Below are positions 19,598 to 28,094 of a stretch of 38,315 nucleotides of DNA, piece after piece. Position 1 is the stretch's first letter, and every line of letters starts with the position of its first letter. The translations under genes and the position numbers were made by a program. Location of the stretch: contig NZ_SMKZ01000062.1 of the NCBI RefSeq assembly GCF_004349065.1, positions 1-38,315 of the forward strand. The letters are read 5' to 3'. The DNA is from Jiangella asiatica. GTDB taxonomy: Bacteria; Actinomycetota; Actinomycetes; Jiangellales; Jiangellaceae. The notes under the pieces were generated by a model. The model searched no databases. It saw nothing but the letters and a program-made list of their open reading frames with translations, and was not told the origin of the DNA.

Positions 19598-21628
19598 ATG
19601 TCGAAGACTTCCTGGCGCACGGCCGCCGCCGTCTCCGTCCTGATGCTGGCGGCGCTGCCGGTCGCGCCTACCGGTGCGGCGCCGGATCGCGAGTTCGACC
19701 TGCAGGCGCACCGCGGCGGGCTCGGGCTGCGGCCGGAGAGCACGCTGGCGTCGTTCGGCAACGCGCTGCAGCTCGGCGTCTCGACGCTGGAGCTGGACGT
19801 CCAGATCACCCGCGACGAGTACGCCGTCGTCACCCACGACCGGCGCATCAACCCGGCCAAGTGCGCCGACACCGAGCCGGTGACCCCGGGTGACCCGCAG
19901 TTCCCGTACGCGCAGGGGCGCTACATCAAGGACCTCACCCTCGCTCAGCTGCGCACGCTGGACTGCGGCAGCCGGCAGCTGGCCGGCTACCCGGAGCAGG
20001 AGGTCGTGCCCGGTGCCGGCATGCCGCTGCTCAGCGAGGTGTTCGACCTGGTTGAGCGGCACGACGCCGACGACGTGACGCTCAACATCGAGACGAAGGT
20101 CGAGGCCGGCGCGCCGCACGAGACCGCGCCACGCGAGCAGTTCGTCGACGTCGTCGCGCGGGACGTCCGCGTCGCCGGGATGCAGAAGCAGGTCACCGTC
20201 CAGTCCTTCGACTGGGGCGCGCTGATGCTCATGGGCGAGGTCGCGCCGGAGCTGCCGCTGGTCGCCCTGACCAACTACGACTTCCTCCAGGTCGACCGGC
20301 CCGGCGCGTCGCCGTGGCTGGGCGGTATTGACATCGACGACTTCGACGACGACCCGATCGCCGCGATCGCGTCCTTCGGCGCCGACGTGTTCTCCCCGGT
20401 GCACGGCTTCCCGCAGGGCGGCTCGGTGGACGACCCCGGCTACGTCCCGTACGTCACGCGTGACCTGGTCCGCCATGCGCACCGCAACGGCATCGAGGTC
20501 GTCCCGTGGACCATCAACGACGTCGCGACCATGAGCAAGCTGATCGACGACGGCGTGGACGGCATCATCACCGACTACCCGGACCGGCTGCGCGGCCTGC
20601 TCGACGACCGCGGCTTCCGGCTGCCAGAACCGCACGCGTCGCCGTTCGACATCCAGGCGCACCGCGGCGGACGCTGGGACCGTCCGGAGAACACCCTGCC
20701 CGCCTTCGAGCACGCACTGGCCAACCCGGACGTCTCCACGCTCGAGCTGGACACCGGCGTCACCGAGGATGGTGTACTGGTGGTCAGCCATGACCGGACG
20801 GTCAACGGCTCGCACTGCCAGGACACCGGGCCGGCCACGCCCGGTGACCCCGAGTTCCCCTACGTCGGCGACCTCGTCCGCGATCTCACGCTGGCGCAGC
20901 TGCGGACCATCGACTGTGGGACGCTCACGACGCTGCCGGAGCAGCAGCCGGAGCCGGGCGCGGGCATCCCGACGCTGGACGAGGTCTTCGACCTGGTCGG
21001 AGCGAGCGGCCGCGACGACATCCGGCTCAACATCGAGACGAAGATCAGCCCGCTGGTCGACGACACCGCGCCCTACCGGGAGTTCACGGCCGCGCTGGTG
21101 GAGGCGGTCCAGGAGGCGAACCTGCGCGACCGCGTCACCATCCAGTCCTTCGACTGGCGCACGATCCGCCACGCCAAGCAGCTGGACGGCCGGATCGACA
21201 CCGTCGCGCTGATCTGGCAGTACGGCCCGGACGAGTGCCGGTCGCTGGCCGACGAGTGCTCCCTGCAGGCCGTCTACGGCGACTCCTCGGTGAAGAGCCC
21301 GTGGACCGCCGGCATCGACTGGTGGCGGGTCGGCGACGTCGGCCGGATGACCCGGATGGCCGGTGCGACGACGGTGTCGGCGAACTGGCAGGTGCACGAC
21401 CCGGACCAGGGCACTGTGGCCTCCGACGACTGGTACCTGCGCCAGGACCCGGCCTACTTCCACGGCCCGGAGATCGACCGCCTGCACCGGATGGGTCTGT
21501 CCGTCGTCCCCTACACCATCAACGACGCCGCCACCATGCAGCACCTCATCGACCTCGGCGTCGACGGGATCATCACCGACGACCCCGGCACCCTGGTCGA
21601 CGTCGCCGAGCTCAACGGCCTGCGCTGA
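19598..21628 (+). CDS. Secreted protein with two glycerophosphodiester phosphodiesterase domains
   Basis: 676 residues. A Sec signal peptide (SKTSWRTAAAVSVLMLAALP, cleavage near residue 28) precedes two GDPD domains at about 32-335 and 348-670. Each has the HRGG motif (His38 and His355), an E-x-D motif (ELDVQ, ELDTG), the HDR motif (VVTHDRRIN, VVSHDRTVN), LNIETK and a TINDxATM...DGIITD end. Such enzymes hydrolyse glycerophosphodiesters to glycerol-3-phosphate and an alcohol, scavenging phosphate or remodelling teichoic acid and lipid head groups. The halves share long matching blocks, so the gene arose by internal duplication. ATG 19598 fits the signal peptide; GTG 19580 is an alternative, and neither has a ribosome-binding site. 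Confidence 0.9.
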   Translation: MSKTSWRTAAAVSVLMLAALPVAPTGAAPDREFDLQAHRGGLGLRPESTLASFGNALQLGVSTLELDVQITRDEYAVVTHDRRINPAKCADTEPVTPGDPQFPYAQGRYIKDLTLAQLRTLDCGSRQLAGYPEQEVVPGAGMPLLSEVFDLVERHDADDVTLNIETKVEAGAPHETAPREQFVDVVARDVRVAGMQKQVTVQSFDWGALMLMGEVAPELPLVALTNYDFLQVDRPGASPWLGGIDIDDFDDDPIAAIASFGADVFSPVHGFPQGGSVDDPGYVPYVTRDLVRHAHRNGIEVVPWTINDVATMSKLIDDGVDGIITDYPDRLRGLLDDRGFRLPEPHASPFDIQAHRGGRWDRPENTLPAFEHALANPDVSTLELDTGVTEDGVLVVSHDRTVNGSHCQDTGPATPGDPEFPYVGDLVRDLTLAQLRTIDCGTLTTLPEQQPEPGAGIPTLDEVFDLVGASGRDDIRLNIETKISPLVDDTAPYREFTAALVEAVQEANLRDRVTIQSFDWRTIRHAKQLDGRIDTVALIWQYGPDECRSLADECSLQAVYGDSSVKSPWTAGIDWWRVGDVGRMTRMAGATTVSANWQVHDPDQGTVASDDWYLRQDPAYFHGPEIDRLHRMGLSVVPYTINDAATMQHLIDLGVDGIITDDPGTLVDVAELNGLR

Positions 21629-21675
21629 CCTCCTGAGTGAGGCTCGTCCGCAGCTTCCGTGGGTGCGCGTGCCCC

Positions 21676-21767
21676 CGAAATGATCACGTTCAGCACGAGA
21701 TCTCGTGTCGCACCATGCTCGCAATCATGGTGAGGCTCGGGGGATCCTGCTGAACGTGATCATTTCG
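21676..21767 (+). repeat. 92-bp palindromic element, copy A
   Basis: Perfect 20-bp terminal inverted repeats (21676-21695 CGAAATGATCACGTTCAGCA and its complement at 21748-21767) enclose two more dyads. These are a 14-bp palindrome CACGAGATCTCGTG (21694-21707) and CACCATG-N8-CATGGTG (21711-21732). The element contains four GATC sites, each in a six-base palindrome (TGATCA, AGATCT, GGATCC, TGATCA). It matches copy B (28003-28094, opposite orientation) at 91 of 92 positions. It lies between the convergent phosphodiesterase and LysE genes. It may be a MITE- or REP-like mobile repeat that also acts as a hairpin terminator. Confidence 0.93.
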
Positions 21768-21906
21768 AGGCCACGGTGTGAGACTGCCGCGGCTGACCGG
21801 GCGGCGGGGGCAGCGAAGCCACATCCCGAAGCCGCGGCGATCCCGCACCGTTCCAGCCGTTCGCGGCGCCGCACAGCATGCCGCTCGCACGACCGCCTTG
21901 GGGACG

Positions 21907-22506
21907 TCAGCCGAGCAGCAGACCGGCGCCGATCGCGGTCATCACCAGGGCGATCAGGCCGTCCAGGACCTGCCAGGCGCGCGGACGCTCGAACACCCGG
22001 CTCAGCGTCCGGGCGCCGAAGCCCAGGGCGACGAACCAGCTCAGGCTCGCCGTCACGGCGCCGGCGCCGTAGAGCCAGCGGCCGTCGTCGCCGTGCTGGT
22101 TGGCCAGTGCGCCGAGCAGCACGACGGTGTCCAGGTACACGTGCGGGTTGAGGAAGGTGAACCCGAGGCAGGCCAGGACGGCGGCGCGGGCGGTGGTCGC
22201 CGACCGGCCGCTCGCGGACATCGACGACGGCCGCAGCGCCCGCCGGGCCGCCAGCGCCCCGTACCCGAGCACGAACGCCGCGCCCGCGTACCGGGCGACG
22301 TCCACGGCCCACGAGTGCGCGGTCAGGACCGCGCCGAGGCCGGCGATCCCGGCGGTGATCAGCAGCGCGTCGGACACCGCGCACACCGCGACCACGGGGA
22401 CGACGTGCCGGCGGGTGATCCCCTGGCGCAGGATGAACGCGTTCTGCGCACCGATGGCGACGATGAGTGTGAGGGAGGTGACGAACCCGACGGCGGCGCT
22501 GGACAC
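21907..22506 (-). CDS. lysE: LysE/ArgO-family amino-acid exporter
   Basis: A 199-residue inner-membrane exporter with six predicted helices. The LysE signatures are [15 protein letters not shown] (residues 15-29) and [20 protein letters not shown]. Relatives export L-lysine and L-arginine, preventing toxic build-up. The GTG at 22506 has no ribosome-binding site, but ACGCTA (TAGCGT on the coding strand) lies 6 nt upstream, so it may be leaderless. It is divergent from a LysG-type regulator, the classic lysE-lysG arrangement. Confidence 0.9.
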
Positions 22507-22540
22507 GCTTCGACGCTAGGAGTCCGCGGCGGTGAGATCC

Positions 22541-22568
22541 AGCTAAAGTTTCTACATGTTCCTTAGCT
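22541..22568. promoter_or_regulatory. LysG-type operator candidate, AGCTAA-N16-TTAGCT
   Basis: AGCTAA (22541-22546) and TTAGCT (22563-22568) form a perfect dyad in the only AT-rich stretch of the lysE-lysG intergenic region. Position and dyad architecture fit a LysR-family operator controlling both divergent genes. Confidence 0.55.
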
Positions 22569-22578
22569 TGGCTTCATC

Positions 22579-23463
22579 ATGCGTATCGATCTCGCGCAGC
22601 TGACCGCGCTCGCCGCCGTCGTCGACGAGGGCAGCTTCGAGGCCGCCGCACGCCGCCTGCACGTGACACCGTCGGCGGTGAGCCAGCGGGTCAAGGCGCT
22701 CGAGGCGCGGATGGGGCAGATCCTCGTCACCCGCACCCGCCCGACCGGCGCCACTGCGGCGGGGCGGGTGCTCGTCCGGTACGCCGGCCAGGTGCGGCTG
22801 TTGGAGAGCGAGGCGTTGTCGGCACTGCCCGGAGCGGACGCCGTCGACCTGCGGCTGCCGCTGGCCGTGAACGCGGACTCGCTGGCCACGTGGTTCCTGC
22901 CGGCGCTGGCGGAACTGGCCGACGAGCGGGCCGCGTGCTTCGAGATCCACCAGGAGGACCAGGACCACTCCGCGACCCTGCTGCGCGACGGCACCGTCAT
23001 GGCCGCGGTGACGGCCGACCCGCACGCCGTCCAGGGCTGTGCCGCGCAGCCGCTGGGGCGCATGCGCTACGTCGGCGTCGCCTCGCCCGGGTTCCTCCGC
23101 CGGTACTTCGCCGACGGCCCGACGACGACGGCGTTCGGCGCGGCGCCGATGCTCGTCTTCAACAGCAAGGACGCGCTGCAGTCCCGGTTCGCCCGCGAGG
23201 TCGGCGGTCGCCGCGTCGACCCGCCGCTGACGGTGCTGCCGTCGTCGGTGGGCTTCGCCGAGGCCGCGGCGCTGGGCCTGGCGTGGGGGATGGTCCCGAC
23301 GCGGCTCGCGGCCGCCCCGCTCGCCGACGGCCGGCTGGTGGAGATCGCGCCCGGCCACCACCTCGACGTGCCGCTGTACTGGCAGCGCTGGAAGCTGGAC
23401 TCGCCGGTCCTCGCCGCACTCACCGCGTCGGTCACGGCGACCGCCGCGGCCTACCTGGACTGA
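22579..23463 (+). CDS. lysG: LysR-family regulator of the exporter (LysG/ArgP type)
   Basis: A 294-residue LysR-type regulator. The N-terminal winged helix-turn-helix (residues 4-60) contains GSFEAAARRLHVTPSAVSQRVKALEARMG. The C-terminal effector domain follows (LPLAVNADSLATWFLPAL), which matches the LysG/ArgP (IciA) subgroup. These activate the adjacent LysE gene when lysine, arginine or histidine is abundant. The ATG at 22579 is 72 bp from the divergent lysE start, with a dyad operator between them. Normal length. Confidence 0.9.
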   Translation: MRIDLAQLTALAAVVDEGSFEAAARRLHVTPSAVSQRVKALEARMGQILVTRTRPTGATAAGRVLVRYAGQVRLLESEALSALPGADAVDLRLPLAVNADSLATWFLPALAELADERAACFEIHQEDQDHSATLLRDGTVMAAVTADPHAVQGCAAQPLGRMRYVGVASPGFLRRYFADGPTTTAFGAAPMLVFNSKDALQSRFAREVGGRRVDPPLTVLPSSVGFAEAAALGLAWGMVPTRLAAAPLADGRLVEIAPGHHLDVPLYWQRWKLDSPVLAALTASVTATAAAYLD

Positions 23464-23605
23464 GGCGCCCGCGCGAAGGCGTAGAGGCGACGGCGTGTGC
23501 TTCGTCACGCCCGTCGTCGGGCCGGCGCGACCTCGCTGGCCGATGAGTTCTGGCCGGCGGCCCTGTCGGTACCGGTGCCGTGTCACCGAGCCTTGGAGGC
23601 AGATC

Positions 23606-24073
23606 ATGACCAGATCACTCAACCCGCGCCTGAGCCGCCTGGACGTCCTGGTGGGCGCCTGGGAGGTGACGGCGTCGTCGAAGGGACGCACCCTGAGCAC
23701 GGCGCCGTGTACCTTCCAGTGGTACGGCGACGGTGGCCTGCTGGTGCAGCGCACCGATCCCCAGACCTACCTCGTGCCCGAATGGGTCGGCGCGGCCCCG
23801 AGCTGGTTCGACGCCGTCATCGGTCTCGACGACCACTCCGACGAGCTCACGATGCTCTACACCGACTCCCGCGGTGTCTGCCGCACCTACCGGATGAGCC
23901 TCGACGGCGACCGGTGGACGCTCTCGAGCCGTCCCGGTCCGGACTTTCACCAGCGGTTCGTGGGCACCGTCAGCGACGACGGCACCGAGATCGACGGCAG
24001 GTGGGAGGCCTCCGAGGACGGCCAGGCCTGGTCGACGGACTTCGACGTGACCTACCGCCGTCTGCCCGGCTGA
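23606..24073 (+). CDS. Small lipocalin-like (DUF1579-like) hypothetical protein
   Basis: A 155-residue cytoplasmic protein without signal peptide. The opening RLDVLVGAWEVTASSKGR resembles the start of small beta-barrel (calycin/DUF1579-like) proteins. The rest alternates short strands (FQWYGDGGLLVQRT, MLYTDSRGVCRTYRMSL, TEIDGRWEASEDGQAW), as expected for a barrel that binds a small ligand. No catalytic motif is visible. The ATG at 23606 follows GGAGG (23595-23599); the longer open frame from 23495 lacks support. It stands alone between lysG and a pseudogene. The exact family is not certain. Confidence 0.7.
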   Translation: MTRSLNPRLSRLDVLVGAWEVTASSKGRTLSTAPCTFQWYGDGGLLVQRTDPQTYLVPEWVGAAPSWFDAVIGLDDHSDELTMLYTDSRGVCRTYRMSLDGDRWTLSSRPGPDFHQRFVGTVSDDGTEIDGRWEASEDGQAWSTDFDVTYRRLPG

Positions 24074-24074
24074 C

Positions 24075-24212
24075 TCAGCCGCGGGCCGGCTGCCGATCCA
24101 GTTCGAACCGTGCCCGTACCTGATCAGCTCGGCCGACGGACCCATGGCCAGGGACGAGGACATCGACGTCGCCCGCCACGTCCTCGAGCAGCCGCAGCCT
24201 GTCTGCGCCAAG
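24075..24212 (-). pseudogene. C-terminal remnant of a metallo-beta-lactamase-fold hydrolase gene
   Basis: Read on the minus strand, 45 codons before a TGA encode LGADRLRLLEDVAGDVDVLV followed by PGHGSVGRADQVRARFELDR. This is the usual C-terminal end of an MBL-fold metallohydrolase, including the VPGHGS motif with a metal-binding histidine. There is no start codon and the HxHxDH catalytic region is absent. The frame ends at a TAA in the promoter of the next gene, which marks the deletion or insertion breakpoint. The remnant ends 2 nt from the convergent lipocalin-like gene. Confidence 0.7.
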
Positions 24213-24251
24213 GAGATGGCAGGATTTGATCTTGATTTAGCTGGGGCTCAG

Positions 24252-24257
24252 TAGGCT
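24252..24257 (+). promoter_or_regulatory. -10 element of a leaderless promoter
   Basis: TAGGCT is 6 nt before the ATG at 24264, the spacing expected when transcription starts at the start codon. TTGATC/TTGATT sequences lie upstream, but not at an ideal distance. Confidence 0.5.
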
Positions 24258-24263
24258 GACGCC

Positions 24264-24827
24264 ATGCGGAAACTGACCTTTGGCATGAACCTGACCCTGG
24301 ACGGCTACATCGCCGCGCCCGGCGACGACCTCGGCTGGAGCGTGCCGAGCGACGAGCTGTTCCAGTGGTGGTCCGACCGGGTGGGAGCAACGGGCCTGGC
24401 GCTGTATGGGCGGAAACTGTGGGAGACGATGAGTTCCCACTGGCCGACCGCCAACCAGCAGCCCGGCGCCACACAAGCGGAGATCGAGTTCGCCCGCCGC
24501 TGGCAGGCCATGCCGAAGGTGGTGTTCTCCTCCACGATCAGCACGGTCGACTGGAACACTCGCCTGGTCACCGGCGACGCGGTCACCGAGATCACCCGGC
24601 TCAAGGCCGAGGATGGCGGCCCCATTGACATCGGCGGCGCCACACTCGCCGCAGCGGCGATGCGGGCCGGGCTGATCGACGAGTACGTGCTGGCCACCGC
24701 ACCGGTCTTGGTGGGCGGCGGCACGCCGTTCTTTACGGCCCTGGACAACTGGGTGAACCTGACCCTGGTGGAGACCCGGACGTTTCCCGACGGCGTGGTC
24801 CTGACCAGGTACGAGACCAGGCACTGA
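24264..24827 (+). CDS. RibD-C / dihydrofolate-reductase-like protein 1
   Basis: A 187-residue protein of the RibD C-terminal/DHFR-like superfamily of NAD(P)H-dependent reductases; the real substrate of the short stand-alone members is unknown. Family marks are the opening MRKLTFGMNLTLDGYIAAPG, YGRKLWETM, PKVVFSSTI, the nucleotide-binding IDIGGATLAAAAMRAGLIDEY, and PVLVGGGTPFF. It appears complete and leaderless. It is one of three such genes within 2.2 kb; the other two are on the minus strand and clearly different in sequence, so they are not recent duplicates. Confidence 0.88.
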   Translation: MRKLTFGMNLTLDGYIAAPGDDLGWSVPSDELFQWWSDRVGATGLALYGRKLWETMSSHWPTANQQPGATQAEIEFARRWQAMPKVVFSSTISTVDWNTRLVTGDAVTEITRLKAEDGGPIDIGGATLAAAAMRAGLIDEYVLATAPVLVGGGTPFFTALDNWVNLTLVETRTFPDGVVLTRYETRH

Positions 24828-25261
24828 GTGCCCTACGTCGGATCGGCGCGAACTTCGGGCCACCCAAGGATCTCGTGGCGCTGCGTTCTGAGGCGACTGT
24901 TATACCCCCGCCGGATCACCAACCGTGTATGTGCGAGATCCCCGCAACAGGACGGTCGGACCGGTGGTTACTTGGGTCCCCGTGCCGGTGACGTTCGCTT
25001 GCCGCGGCGTCGTGTCGTCAAGGGTTTGGTGGGGCCGCCGCAGGGTGTTCCCTTCAACACCGCCAACACGACCTAAATCTGCCCGGATCTGCTCGTCCAC
25101 AGCCACCTGCCTGGACGGTTTCCGCGATCTGCTCACCCAGAATGGCCGCGTCGTCCTGCGATCACGGACACCCCCGGGCAGGAGAGTTGGCAGCCCCGGT
25201 CCGGATGTCTCCAGGCCCGGATGCGTATGGCCGGCGTCGTCTCCCGCGGGCGCGTCGGCGG
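24828..25261. other. 434-bp stretch without a recognisable gene
   Basis: The frames in this stretch give proline/arginine-rich products with no family resemblance, and codon bias is weaker than in neighbouring genes. TTATAC at 24899-24904 resembles a -10 box but is not followed by a credible gene. No tRNA, terminator or long repeat was found. It may be remnant DNA left by rearrangement between two similar reductase genes. Confidence 0.5.
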
Positions 25262-25864
25262 TCAGCGCACCACCGGGAACACGAGATGGGTGACGCGGTC
25301 GCCTTGAACACAGACCGATGGGTTGCCGAGCAGCACGTCGTCAGCCGAGAGCTTGCCGAAGAAGGGGCGGTTGCCCTCGCCCATCACGACCGGGACGAGG
25401 TCTATGGCCACTTCGTCGAGCAGCCCCAGGTCCAGGCACTGCCGGGCGATGGTGCCACCGGTGACCGCGACGACACGGTCGCCAGCGAGCGTCTGCGCAT
25501 GAGCGACTGCGGCCGCTACTCCGTCGGTCACGAAGGTGAACGGTGCCTCGGGGTGTGCGTCGACCCAGTCGGTGGGGACCCGGTGCGTCACGACGACGAC
25601 GGGGACGTCCAGTGTGTGGCGACCCTGCCAGCCCTCGGCCACCTCGAACAGCGTCCGGCCGCAGACCAGTGCGCCGAGTGAGGACACCCACCGCCGCCAG
25701 TGTTCCGCGCTCGGCGGGGTCAGATGGACGGCGAAGTCCCCAGCGGGAGTCGGGAGCTCGACCTCGCCGTTTTGCAGCCAGTCGAACAACCGGCCGATGG
25801 TGTTGTCCTGTTTGGCGACGTACCCGTCGAGCGACATGATCGCCTGCGCCACCACCTTGCCCAC
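25262..25864 (-). CDS. RibD-C / dihydrofolate-reductase-like protein 2
   Basis: A 200-residue RibD-C-type reductase. Marks are VVAQAIMSLDGYVAKQDNTIG at the start, LVCGRTLFEVAEGWQG, VVVVTHRVPTDW, VAVTGGTIARQCLDLGLLDE and LVPVVMGEGNRPFFG. The GTG at 25864 is preceded by GGGGAGGAG; an in-frame GTG nine bases further in is an alternative. It lies 14 nt after the third family member and is probably co-transcribed with it. Relatives in actinomycetes are annotated as deaminase/reductase proteins; no partner of the riboflavin pathway is nearby, so a role in riboflavin synthesis is unlikely. Confidence 0.85.
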   Translation of the reverse strand: MGKVVAQAIMSLDGYVAKQDNTIGRLFDWLQNGEVELPTPAGDFAVHLTPPSAEHWRRWVSSLGALVCGRTLFEVAEGWQGRHTLDVPVVVVTHRVPTDWVDAHPEAPFTFVTDGVAAAVAHAQTLAGDRVVAVTGGTIARQCLDLGLLDEVAIDLVPVVMGEGNRPFFGKLSADDVLLGNPSVCVQGDRVTHLVFPVVR

Positions 25865-25878
25865 GGCTCCTCCCCTTC

Positions 25879-26433
25879 TCAGATGTGCTGCGGCCGGTAG
25901 ACGTGCACCACGACGCCGCTGGGAAACGACACGGCCTCGACGAGGCTCAGGCGCCGCGAGTCCGGTAGTTGATCGAACAGCGCCCGTCCCTGGCCCAGCA
26001 CCAACGGCTGGACGAAGAGGCGGTACTCGTCGATCAGGTCCGCCGCAGCCAGAGCGCCGGCGAACCGTCCGCCGCCCCACACGATCACGTCTGGGCCAGG
26101 CGCGGCCTTGATCGCGGCGATCTCGGCCGCGAGGTCACCGCGCGCGACCTGGGTGACCGGCCAGGTCGCCTCGGCGTCGCCGAGTGTCTTGGAGAACACG
26201 ACCTTGGGGGTGTCGTTCATCGGGGCCGCGTACGGGTCGTCCGACTGCGGCCAGTACGACGACATCTGCTGGTACGTGACGCGGCCCATGAGGTGGGCAC
26301 CGGCCTTGCTGATGCGGTCGAGCTTCCACTGCTTGAGTTCGGCGCCCTCGGGGATCGCGACCCCGGGGTGCCCACGGTCGCTGTCAACGAACCCGTCCAG
26401 TGACATCGACATGTACAGAATGACGTCTCGCAT
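25879..26433 (-). CDS. RibD-C / dihydrofolate-reductase-like protein 3
   Basis: A 184-residue member of the same superfamily: MRDVILYMSMSLDGFVDSDR, HLMGRVTYQQMSSYWP, PKVVFSKTLGDAEATWPVTQ, DVIVWGGGRFAGALAAADLIDEYRLFV and PLVLGQGRALFDQLP. The ATG at 26433 has GAGGAGAG upstream. It comes first in a two-gene minus-strand unit with reductase-like protein 2. A short open frame of 56 codons ends just upstream and overlaps its ribosome-binding site. Function unknown beyond a probable NADPH-dependent reduction. Confidence 0.87.
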   Translation of the reverse strand: MRDVILYMSMSLDGFVDSDRGHPGVAIPEGAELKQWKLDRISKAGAHLMGRVTYQQMSSYWPQSDDPYAAPMNDTPKVVFSKTLGDAEATWPVTQVARGDLAAEIAAIKAAPGPDVIVWGGGRFAGALAAADLIDEYRLFVQPLVLGQGRALFDQLPDSRRLSLVEAVSFPSGVVVHVYRPQHI

Positions 26434-26436
26434 GAC

Positions 26437-26607
26437 CTATCTCTCCTCGATCTTGTTCCCGTCCGGTCGACGGTCGCCGAACAACATCCCGAACCCTCGG
26501 CCGGCCACCTGGTTCGCCTCCAGGACCAGGCGTCCGGTCCGGCACTCCACGTGGTCGACGACGCGAGCGACTCGCAAGCCGTCCACCGAATCATGAGGCT
26601 GCTTCAT
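26437..26607 (-). CDS. Possible 56-residue protein or 3' gene fragment
   Basis: An open frame of 56 codons (MKQPHDSVDGLRVARVVDHV at the start, ending GDRRPDGNKIEER) with GC-rich third positions throughout. It lacks a well-spaced ribosome-binding site: the GGGAG upstream better fits a different ATG whose frame stops after eight codons. Its stop lies inside the ribosome-binding region of reductase-like protein 3, as for an operon partner. The out-of-frame start nearby suggests a truncated or frameshifted gene. Not recognised. Confidence 0.35.
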   Translation of the reverse strand: MKQPHDSVDGLRVARVVDHVECRTGRLVLEANQVAGRGFGMLFGDRRPDGNKIEER

Positions 26608-26669
26608 TCGGCTTCATGCTTCTCCCTACCGACCGCCCGCGTGCCCGAAACTCATCGTGGCCTACCAGG

Positions 26670-27266
26670 TCACCGTCCGGGGTCTCCGGGTCGTTGCAGG
26701 TCATGCCGCGGGTGCGGGTCGGTGGCGACGGCTTGCTGGAGGAGCCGGTAGAACAGCAGGCCGCGCTTGTGGGCGGTGCGGCGGTTGAACCGGAAGGTGT
26801 ACTCGCCGAGGTAGTACGGGCAGCTGCTCGGTGCTGACGCGATGGTGCAGGGTGCCGGCGATCCAGCGTTTGAACAGCGACGCGATCAGGTGGACGCCGG
26901 GCAGCACGGTCGTCGGGTCGGTCGCGTTGTGGCCGGTGGTGTCGTGATGGACCTAGCCCATGTCGCCTGGCCGGCGCAGCCCTCGGGCGCCGTCGGTGTG
27001 GATGGTAGAGCCGGGCTCGACGACACGGGCGGGCGCGGTCTCGTACGAGCCGAACCGGACCCACCGTTCTTCTGCGACGTGACGAACCAGGTCGCGGCGA
27101 ACCACGTCGCCAGCGGCGTGCGGGTCCAGTGGAAGATCGTGCCCACAGTCACCGACGTCTGTCGCCCACAGGCCGCGCACATGAGCAGCGCCTTGCCGGT
27201 CCGCCAGCACGCACCCGCCCCGCAGCGCGGGCAGACGAACCCGTCCCGCCTGCGCAGCCGCTGCCA
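26670..27266 (-). pseudogene. Degraded IS1595/ISXO2-type transposase
   Basis: Conceptual translation gives the zinc-ribbon start RDGFVCPRCGAGACWRTGKA, then MCAACGRQTSVTVGTIFHWT and WFAATWFVTSQKNG. The frame then shifts, and roughly 100 residues of the catalytic core are missing before SYETA, ARVVEPGSTIHTDGARGL, an in-frame TAG in place of the Tyr of GYVHHD, PGVHLIASLFKRWIAGTLHH, and in another frame YYLGEYTFRFNRRTAHKRGL ending at TGA 26670. The N-terminus is also cut by a stop. This pattern is the IS1595-family DDE transposase; the element is dead. Terminal inverted repeats were not found. Its breakpoint lies just before the LexA box of the next gene. Confidence 0.85.
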
Positions 27267-27292
27267 TCATACTTGATCCACCCAGACATTCA

Positions 27293-27304
27293 GAACATAC
27301 GTTC
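27293..27304. promoter_or_regulatory. LexA (SOS) box GAAC-ATAC-GTTC
   Basis: GAACATACGTTC matches the Gram-positive/actinobacterial LexA box GAAC-N4-GTTC exactly. It overlaps a further GTTCGAAC dyad (27301-27308). It sits 11 bp before the -10 element of the AlkB-like gene, over the -35 position, an ideal place for repression by LexA. Confidence 0.75.
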
Positions 27305-27314
27305 GAACGTGTAG

Positions 27315-27320
27315 TAGGGT
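27315..27320 (+). promoter_or_regulatory. -10 element of a leaderless alkB promoter
   Basis: TAGGGT is 7 nt before ATG 27328, so transcription probably begins at the start codon. The LexA box covers the -35 region. Confidence 0.5.
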
Positions 27321-27327
27321 GCTGGGT

Positions 27328-27963
27328 ATGAGCGTTGCCTTTCAAGCGTCCTTGCTCGACGGCGCGCTATATGGGCCCGAGCTCCGGCCGCTCGGCGGCG
27401 CCGTCGAGCGCACCGAGCTCACCCAGGGTGCCTGGGTCGACCTGCGGCCCGGCTGGGTCAGCGGGTCCGACGAGCTGTTCACCCGCCTGGTCGAATCGGT
27501 GCCGTGGAAGGCCGAGCGGCGCACTATGTACGAGCGCGTGGTCGACGTGCCCCGGCTGGTCCGCTTCTACGGCGACGGCGAAGCGCTGCCCGACCCGCTG
27601 CTCGAGACTGCGAAGGCACGGCTGAGCCGGCACTATGCAGCCGAGCTCGGCGAGCCGTTTACTACCGCCGGCATGTGCTTCTACCGCGACGGCCGCGACA
27701 GCGTGGCCTGGCACGGCGACACCATCGGCCGCAGCCGCACTGAGGACACCATGGTCGCCATCGTGTCGCTCGGTGCTCCGCGGTCGTTGTTGCTGCGCCA
27801 GCGTGGCGGCGGAAGCGCCACGCTGCGGTTCTCCGTCGGCCACGGCGACCTGCTGGTGATGGGCGGGTCGTGCCAGCGCACGTGGGAGCACGCCGTGCCG
27901 AAGACGGCCAAGCCGGTCGGTCCGCGCATCAGCGTGCAGTTCCGCCCCACCGGCGTGCGCTGA
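27328..27963 (+). CDS. AlkB-like 2-oxoglutarate/Fe(II) dioxygenase, SOS-controlled
   Basis: A 211-residue AlkB-family dioxygenase that should oxidatively remove alkyl groups from DNA bases. The iron ligands are His129 and Asp131 in AWHGDTIGR and His188 in WEHAVPK; Arg200 and Arg206 in GPRISVQFR bind 2-oxoglutarate and position the substrate. The usual Asn of the N-x-Y 2-oxoglutarate motif appears as Cys117 in MCFYRDGRDSVAWHGD, which may be a lineage variation. ATG 27328 fits both the family start and the leaderless promoter; GTG 27319 would add three residues. The LexA box upstream links it to DNA damage. Confidence 0.9.
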   Translation: MSVAFQASLLDGALYGPELRPLGGAVERTELTQGAWVDLRPGWVSGSDELFTRLVESVPWKAERRTMYERVVDVPRLVRFYGDGEALPDPLLETAKARLSRHYAAELGEPFTTAGMCFYRDGRDSVAWHGDTIGRSRTEDTMVAIVSLGAPRSLLLRQRGGGSATLRFSVGHGDLLVMGGSCQRTWEHAVPKTAKPVGPRISVQFRPTGVR

Positions 27964-28002
27964 GCTGAACGACCCCGCCTGATCGGCGCCTGGCGCTGCC
28001 TT

Positions 28003-28094
28003 CGAAATGATCACGTTCAGCAGGATCCCCCGAGCCTCACCATGATTGCGAGCATGGTGTGACACGAGATCTCGTGCTGAACGTGATCATTTCG
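28003..28094 (-). repeat. 92-bp palindromic element, copy B (inverted relative to copy A)
   Basis: The reverse complement is identical to 21676-21767 except at one base (position 35 of the element, G in A, A in B). It has the same 20-bp terminal inverted repeats (28003-28022 and 28075-28094), the same two internal dyads and four palindromic GATC sites. It also lies between convergent genes: the AlkB-like gene on the left and the protease regulator on the right. Flanking bases show no obvious target-site duplication. Confidence 0.93.

Follow-up and report, generated by a model that had tools for sequence, protein, structure and literature searches.

The window, that is the whole stretch of 38,315 nucleotides of Jiangella asiatica DNA analysed here, carries two near-identical, inverted copies of a short palindromic element, which raises the question of what kind of repeat this is and what has spread it. 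Non-coding repeats of the REP-like kind are widespread in bacteria. The preliminary description of the locus had proposed a REP-like or MITE element moved in trans or, alternatively, a double-sided terminator.

Window copies and the repeat family

Direct reading and a script agree that copy 1 (21676..21767, plus strand; an 88-bp core at 21678-21765 with CG on either side) and copy 2 (28003..28094, minus strand) are inverted and 91/92 identical, the sole difference being G/A at position 35. The 20-bp terminal inverted repeats match perfectly. In copy 1, these are CGAAATGATCACGTTCAGCA at 21676..21695 (plus strand), corresponding to the conserved foot of the family, and its counterpart at 21748..21767 (minus strand), which is missing in the 78-bp form described below. 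Both inner dyads are present as well, the 14-bp palindrome CACGAGATCTCGTG at 21694..21707 and a 7-8-7 hairpin at 21711..21732 (arms 21711-21717 and 21726-21732) forming the apex of the conserved hairpin. The fold is much more stable than that of shuffled sequences, with z-scores of -8.95 for RNA and -8.24 for DNA and 0 of 200 shuffles as low, while the element has no coding capacity and the window yields 0 matches to Rfam families at gathering score. Copy 1 is situated between convergent genes, a GDPD gene (plus strand, ending at 21628) and a LysE gene (minus strand, 21907-22506); copy 2 is preceded by a 2OG-Fe(II) oxygenase gene (plus strand, ending at 27963) and opposed by a minus-strand gene predicted by the gene caller of this analysis. 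Of these features, the near-identity, the terminal repeats, both inner dyads, the absent coding capacity and the convergent surroundings had been described beforehand and are borne out. The assumption of otherwise unrelated surroundings, in contrast, fails for copy 1, which is embedded in a longer mosaic repeat (about 21638..21868; boundaries from alignments and approximate) common to other copies in the genome. This mosaic is fullest at C90:161293, C127:9400 and C56:22687, at roughly 320-410 bp with limits again approximated by alignment, and copy 2 shares only the core.

In the J. asiatica genome, 151 forward and 143 reverse element ends, 294 in total, were detected at up to 2 mismatches (control: 0), giving a family of well over 100 copies. 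The 40 full matches that score best share 96-100% identity with copy 1. A local duplication of one intergenic sequence, as might be suspected from two near-identical copies only 6.3 kb apart and as the preliminary description would have favoured if these were the only ones, is refuted by the 294 ends and retains practically no probability. Among the genomes searched, the element is multicopy in Jiangellaceae only.

Three forms can be distinguished, namely an asymmetric 78-bp unit, the symmetric 88-bp form represented by the window copies, in which the right arm is completed, and a perfect 46-bp palindrome. The 78-bp unit consists of the conserved foot AAATGATCACGTTCAGCA and an imperfect hairpin in fixed register, with positions 17-40 paired with 49-72, while positions 1-16 (AAATGATCACGTTCAG) are without pairing partner. 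Positions 2-10 are invariant in all 50 own units, where the foot reads (G/A)AATGATCACGTT, and 25 gene-flanking units bear variants of the same foot. Length is strictly kept, as 48 of 58 solo ends belong to asymmetric 78-bp units, this form being about as frequent as the symmetric one, and the 73-nt register is constant across genera. RNAalifold did not give a convincing consensus fold for the 50 own 78-bp units (-1.8 kcal/mol). The register was first noticed on other species after that run, and covariation was tested afterwards; the stem pairs covary, albeit weakly within the J. asiatica genome alone (z 1.3).

Location and site occupancy

Copies are intergenic and lie close to gene 3' ends: the median distance from the preceding stop codon is 43 bp (n=123), and that on the 5' side, measured in tandem pairs, is 160 bp (n=55). 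Convergent gaps account for 22/48 sites of the 88-bp form and 12/48 of the 78-bp form, compared to 56/373 gene pairs in contig C37. Occupancy varies from species to species, and the element is nearly absent from some species of the genus Jiangella. Among seven comparable sites, four are occupied in both J. asiatica (G000) and J. gansuensis (G006), with species-specific stems at the shared sites. From these four it follows that part of the copies, or at least of the sites, is old or convergent. The 88-bp form is compatible with the proposed recent spread, the sites also occupied in J. gansuensis less so.

The position behind stop codons, the share of convergent gaps, the stable fold and the shared sites with their differing stems would all suit a bidirectional terminator or 3'-end mRNA stabiliser, with selection and gene conversion keeping the copies and any link to a nuclease gene being secondary. 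This explanation is the strongest competitor, although rather unlikely, as it does not account for one nuclease gene bracketed by units at different loci (see below), for the constant 73-nt register across genera and for the near absence in some species of the genus; moreover, the element has no T-run beyond ATTT. A terminator role alongside mobility may nevertheless apply.

A target-site duplication was sought on 49 78-bp and 51 88-bp units, using boundary offsets of -12 to +5 and -6 to +12 and k = 2-6, 8 and 9, and direct repeats showed no clear excess over permuted flanks at any tested offset. In 15 loci compared, no copy within 2 mismatches of a 14-base core was present, which is sparse evidence. 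Base-exact junctions at other loci were not obtainable, the intergenic DNA being too diverged (the loci of G001, G002 and G009 are disregarded in part of this comparison). The locus on the mshC side was considered as a possible empty site in G001, G002, G008 and G010 but rejected, since it contains other sequence of about 450-520 bp. In G014, this locus is unoccupied; with flanks of only 73% identity, it does not provide a base-exact junction. A classical MITE derived from a now-lost DDE insertion sequence could explain the near-perfect terminal inverted repeats of the 88-bp form and the close similarity (96-100%) of the 40 copies scored. However, it is very improbable in view of the lack of a clear excess of direct repeats, the asymmetric units of strict length and the recurrent presence between inverted units of a gene that does not encode a DDE transposase. 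Genes lying between inverted units also looked unlike DDE transposases by eye. Of the initial proposal, the REP-like half is supported, in line with a genome-wide, non-coding element of variable occupancy, and the classical MITE with target-site duplication is not supported.

A gene bracketed by inverted units and its predicted product

The preliminary description had suggested a search for a transposase with matching ends. A candidate for a gene acting in trans and carrying such ends does exist, and it is not a RAYT gene. Homologues of this gene are flanked by units in 14 Jiangellaceae genomes, in inverted orientation on both sides in 13 and on one side in one; in G012, a second flanking unit was not found. 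The position of the unit-flanked gene changes with the genus, two species have it in reversed orientation, and the gene broadly parallels element copy number across genomes. G002, however, possesses the gene (ends with 3 mismatches) yet has 0 dispersed matches to the search pattern, and G003 has 14 ends and no gene listed. The J. asiatica copy adjoins an mshC-like ORF (name given by eye) and, in the sequence of this genome examined, the gene is limited to a single place whereas element copies are found everywhere. At C37:116333, a distant paralogue lacks flanking inverted repeats longer than 11 bp. The nearest neighbours of the gene ends are clearly from the same species in G000 and G006 and mixed in G004, G005, G007, G009 and G011, for which the number of dispersed copies available is small.

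The gene product is predicted to be an AbiEi-like part fused to a nuclease of the Vsr/homing-endonuclease type. An AbiEi domain was found (PADLOC AbiEi match, 1.2e-14), and residues 219-330 are predicted to adopt the Vsr/EDxHD nuclease fold, the corresponding Foldseek E-values being weak (0.016 and 0.074). In 45 homologues, E222, E265 and K271 are invariant and D254 and D267 nearly so, making these five residues candidates for catalysis as far as conservation goes. Searching PDB sequences with the protein gave nothing convincing, and NCBIfam gave no match. In total, 563 homologues were scored, and the viral contigs contained 23 pattern stretches and 0 relatives of the protein.

With a probability of about 0.6, the element represents a palindromic, non-autonomous repeat of the REP-like kind in Jiangellaceae that is mobilised in trans by this predicted non-RAYT nuclease, which suggests a repeat-spreading system with an enzyme other than the known one. 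The 88-bp form would then be a recently multiplied version of the basic unit. The architecture itself is observed; from it, we infer that the partner protein binds and cuts the unit and takes part in its copying. Most likely, the protein encoded by the bracketed gene would recognise the unit and, once the hairpin is extruded, nick it at the foot. Repair of the nick or joining at another place would then duplicate or relocate units into the gaps that follow stop codons, no target duplication being made.

Mobilisation by a RAYT, a Y1 tyrosine transposase, would match the architecture, which is the same as in REP and RAYT. It is highly improbable, though, as PF01797 is missing at E <= 0.001 in 12/12 genomes of the genus and was found in 5/14 control genomes; a divergent Y1 protein below detection is possible. 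The bracketing units might otherwise be operators to which an AbiEi-like regulator or defence factor binds for self-control, the dispersed copies being spread by another enzyme. In line with this, AbiEi of Streptococcus agalactiae autoregulates by binding inverted repeats (PMC7319586), and the PADLOC match points to the same family. Against it stand the presence of units downstream of the gene as well, the single gene place as opposed to copies everywhere, and the predicted nuclease domain fused to the AbiEi-like part, so that this explanation is unlikely.

Extending the preferred reading of trans mobilisation by the bracketed nuclease, actinobacterial AbiEi-Vsr proteins might generally be repeat-spreading nucleases, with the gene of each lineage seeding its own border hairpins in a REP-like manner independent of RAYTs, a proposal given somewhat less than an even chance. 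Among four distant homologues examined, three have repeats on both sides and one is without clear flanking repeat; in two of the four, the flanking repeats are direct, not inverted. The gene-flanking repeat of Collinsella has only 2 matches, at 2 mismatches, in the second 50-kb stretch. A flanking-repeat control on 161 of 181 annotated genes in four 50-kb stretches (two Collinsella, two Tsukamurella; edge genes and some mostly short genes left out) flagged 5/161 genes. These included both AbiEi-Vsr genes (E 7e-26 and 2e-19). The remaining three were an acyltransferase gene (E 3e-6) and two genes annotated as IS transposases, both with E 2e-7.

Comparison with known systems

In the portions of the literature covered, RAYTs are the only dedicated partners described for REP-like repeats, and other repeat families are without known enzyme. 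If the trans-mobilisation reading is true, such orphan repeats would gain a candidate mechanism in a second nuclease, unrelated to RAYTs and enclosed by repeats of its own, and a family of actinobacterial proteins currently annotated as AbiEi antitoxins or as hypothetical would gain a function.

The predicted folds of the two protein parts resemble the homing endonuclease I-Bth0305I and Vsr on the one hand and AbiEi antitoxins on the other, whereas fusion of both parts and linkage to dispersed palindromes were not found in the parts of the literature searched. With MITEs of DDE insertion sequences, the element shares being short, non-coding and multicopy with terminal inverted repeats (88-bp form), but differs in that a target-site duplication was not seen, the hairpin register is fixed and the asymmetric form is about equally common. 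As far as the accessible text goes, the CGTC-tagged REPs (PMC3733652) are likewise dispersed tagged hairpins, not RAYT-flanking and without a known dedicated transposase; tag and size are different, and no repeat-flanked transposase gene appears there, in contrast to the flanked predicted nuclease gene in Jiangellaceae.

The closest resemblance is to the REP/REPIN system, whose partner RAYT is a REP-associated tyrosine transposase of the Y1/HUH type (PMC2817692). Both comprise more than 100 intergenic copies of an imperfect hairpin with conserved foot, a gene between two inverted copies (13/14 Jiangellaceae loci), compensated stem changes and inverted doublets. Nevertheless, the foot starts with AAATGATCACGTT instead of GTAG or GT(A/G)G, and the unit of 73-78 bp exceeds the 20-40 bp given for REPs (PMC3733652). 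Above all, with no PF01797 found in the genus, the Jiangellaceae gene product is predicted to be not a Y1 protein but an AbiEi-like part joined to a Vsr-type nuclease.

Forms and abundance of the repeat

By direct comparison, the two 92-bp copies (window 21676–21767, forward strand, and 28003–28094, reverse strand) differ by a single base, as given in the preliminary description, and the element folds far better, by folding energy, than its shuffled versions. The genome-wide copy search proposed there settles that this is a member of a family and not one pair: in the 7.03-Mb J. asiatica genome, of which the window is contig C93, the 18-base end gives 151 + 143 matches at up to two mismatches, compared with 0 for the control. 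Forms were inspected in 1.486 Mb of this genome, mostly picked for holding copies and thus no fair sample of density. Found were 51 symmetric 88-bp elements (the form of the window copies), 2 perfect 46-bp palindromes and 58 solo ends, the latter comprising 48 in asymmetric units of exactly 78 bp (foot plus imperfect hairpin), 2 whose unit measures 77 or 79 bp, and 8 that fit neither class. Completing the right arm of the 78-bp unit gives the 88-bp form. Since 40 scored symmetric copies are 96–100% identical, compared with 78-bp units whose hairpins vary while their first 20 bases hardly do, the 88-bp form looks like the product of a recent burst. In the 46-bp palindromes (C37:383591 and C37:43684), two units are fused at the 14-bp inner palindrome, which suggests arm copying by template switching.

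Elements lie within about 75 bases of the starts of contigs C8, C56 and C70 and of the ends of C82, C87 and C89; as the assembly thus seems to break at elements, copy number is probably undercounted. Copy 1 is enclosed by a longer mosaic repeat (window 21638–21868), and copy 2 lacks such surroundings. The mosaic reaches up to about 400 bp, has imperfect TTCTGCTGC(A/T)TCCGTGGGTG termini and encloses some of the 88-bp copies; it is also present at C90:161023–161411, C127:9354–9672 and C56:22414–22831.

Position and site occupancy

With gene positions from a simple GC-frame caller, none of 98 classified copies lies inside a gene, 5 further copies being too close to the stretch end. The median distance to the adjacent gene 3′ end is 43 bp (n = 123) and that on the 5′ side in tandem gene pairs 160 bp (n = 55); in 14 of the 98 copies, the stop codon is the element's own TGA. 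Elements are enriched in convergent gaps (34/96 versus 56/373 gene pairs) and rarer in divergent ones (9/96 versus 56/373). No target-site duplication was detected in the 49 and 51 copies tested.

The exact 13-base foot occurs in 12 of 22 Jiangellaceae genomes from three of the six genera, two of the 12 having a single match. Among 395 further genomes of the phylum, five have one match each; these are attributable to chance, as the reversed control is equally frequent (one match in five others). Comparison with 400 kb of J. gansuensis sequence was possible for the 7 of 17 C37 copies with both flanks aligned. Four of these sites hold the element in both species, each hairpin being of its own species' type (site 334799 is more loosely aligned), and three are unoccupied in J. 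gansuensis; conversely, J. asiatica lacks at least one element of J. gansuensis. A composite insertion on C56 is found only in J. asiatica, J. gansuensis having a unit of its own type in the same gap, and the neighboring gap carries a unit in opposite direction in G004, taken as J. aurantiaca.

A gene bracketed by units

Neighboring 78-bp units are inverted with feet outward in 6/6 pairs within 1.5 kb and 7/8 within 3 kb. Between the units of one such pair lies a gene of 318–334 codons, predicted to encode an AbiEi-like part fused to a Vsr/homing-endonuclease-type nuclease (AbiEi-Vsr). Units flank this gene at all 14 loci examined, on both sides in 13 and on one side in G012. Among the matches listed, the gene unit adjoins an mshC-like gene (named by eye) in 9 genomes, with both flanks on one contig in 8 and one flank in G004, and it is inverted relative to its flanks in J. 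gansuensis (G006) and G007. Homologues of 52–72% identity occupy other loci in G002, G014, G016, G018 and G021; the mshC-side locus of G014 is unoccupied, the stop codons of the two neighbors being 3 bp apart. End counts in the seven Jiangella genomes carrying the gene at the mshC-side locus are 294 (J. asiatica), 156 (J. gansuensis), 41 (G007), 39 (G009), 39 (G011), 33 (G005) and 32 (G004). Where no gene is among the matches listed, in which weak gene matches may be missed, 0 (G001), 14 (G003), 0 (G008) and 1 (G010) were counted. G002 shows 0 by this pattern, its gene's own ends having three mismatches.

The 25 gene-flanking units found by pattern align without gaps over 73 columns. In the distant genera (G014, G016, G018 and G021), stems are near perfect with 21–24 of 24 pairs in six of seven units and 19 in the seventh, and stem sequences differ between the two sides of one gene. 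Pairing of positions 17–40 with 49–72 is realized in 70.3% of cells, versus 62.6% in shuffles and 31–46% in slid registers, the latter being the better control because relatedness inflates shuffle tests. Compensated cells number 70 versus 36.1 in shuffles (0/500 as high); further pair types do not exceed shuffles (246/500). Within single genomes, covariation is weak in J. asiatica (z 1.3) and clearer in J. gansuensis (z 3.3).

Other genes lying between inverted 78-bp units, named by eye, encode a small lipoprotein, an acetyltransferase and an AsnC-type ligand-binding protein (C36:13905–14538, C85:6463–7452 and C90:10654–11193). A distant AbiEi-like paralogue (C37:116333–117202, 27% identity) has no flanking inverted repeats above 11 bp. 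Contigs of 1.05–1.30 kb, approximately the gene plus ends, carry 26 of 118 homologues among the matches listed with size; the cause may be breaks in the assembly at repeats, or merely a length cut-off. A second palindrome type with TGATCATCAAC ends, possibly a sister family, occurs in J. anatolica, Haloactinopolyspora and G008 (L061:4275, L065:3338 and 11988, and L270, the mshC-side locus of G008).

Distant homologues and comparison with REP systems

Four of six matches in a plasmid collection were examined (two partial ones were left out), all in records with chromosome-like gene content. The Collinsella homologue is flanked by 57-bp hairpins, four on one side and two on the other, and this repeat is hardly present in a second 50-kb stretch (2 matches at two mismatches). 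Direct repeats flank two Tsukamurella homologues (78 bp at 88% and 117 bp at 85% identity), and the fourth homologue shows no clear flanking repeat. In a small control sample (200 kb from two records; 161 of 181 genes tested), flanking repeats were flagged for five genes: the two AbiEi-Vsr genes it contains, two genes annotated as insertion-sequence transposases and one further gene.

The repeats form a family with non-random location and linkage to the AbiEi-Vsr gene. That the AbiEi-Vsr protein moves them is the most likely reading, to which we assign a probability of roughly 0.6; they may also function as terminators alongside any such mobilization. In the accessible part of the open-access literature searched, no description of this Jiangellaceae repeat/AbiEi-Vsr system was found. 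For CGTC REPs, a dedicated transposase is seemingly absent (PMC3733652). Despite its REP-like working, the system is not classed as REP/RAYT, since tests for the REP foot and for the Y1 tyrosine transposase (RAYT) were both negative. It shares the anatomy of REP systems but differs in its foot, in the greater length of its unit and in its predicted enzyme, which is unrelated.
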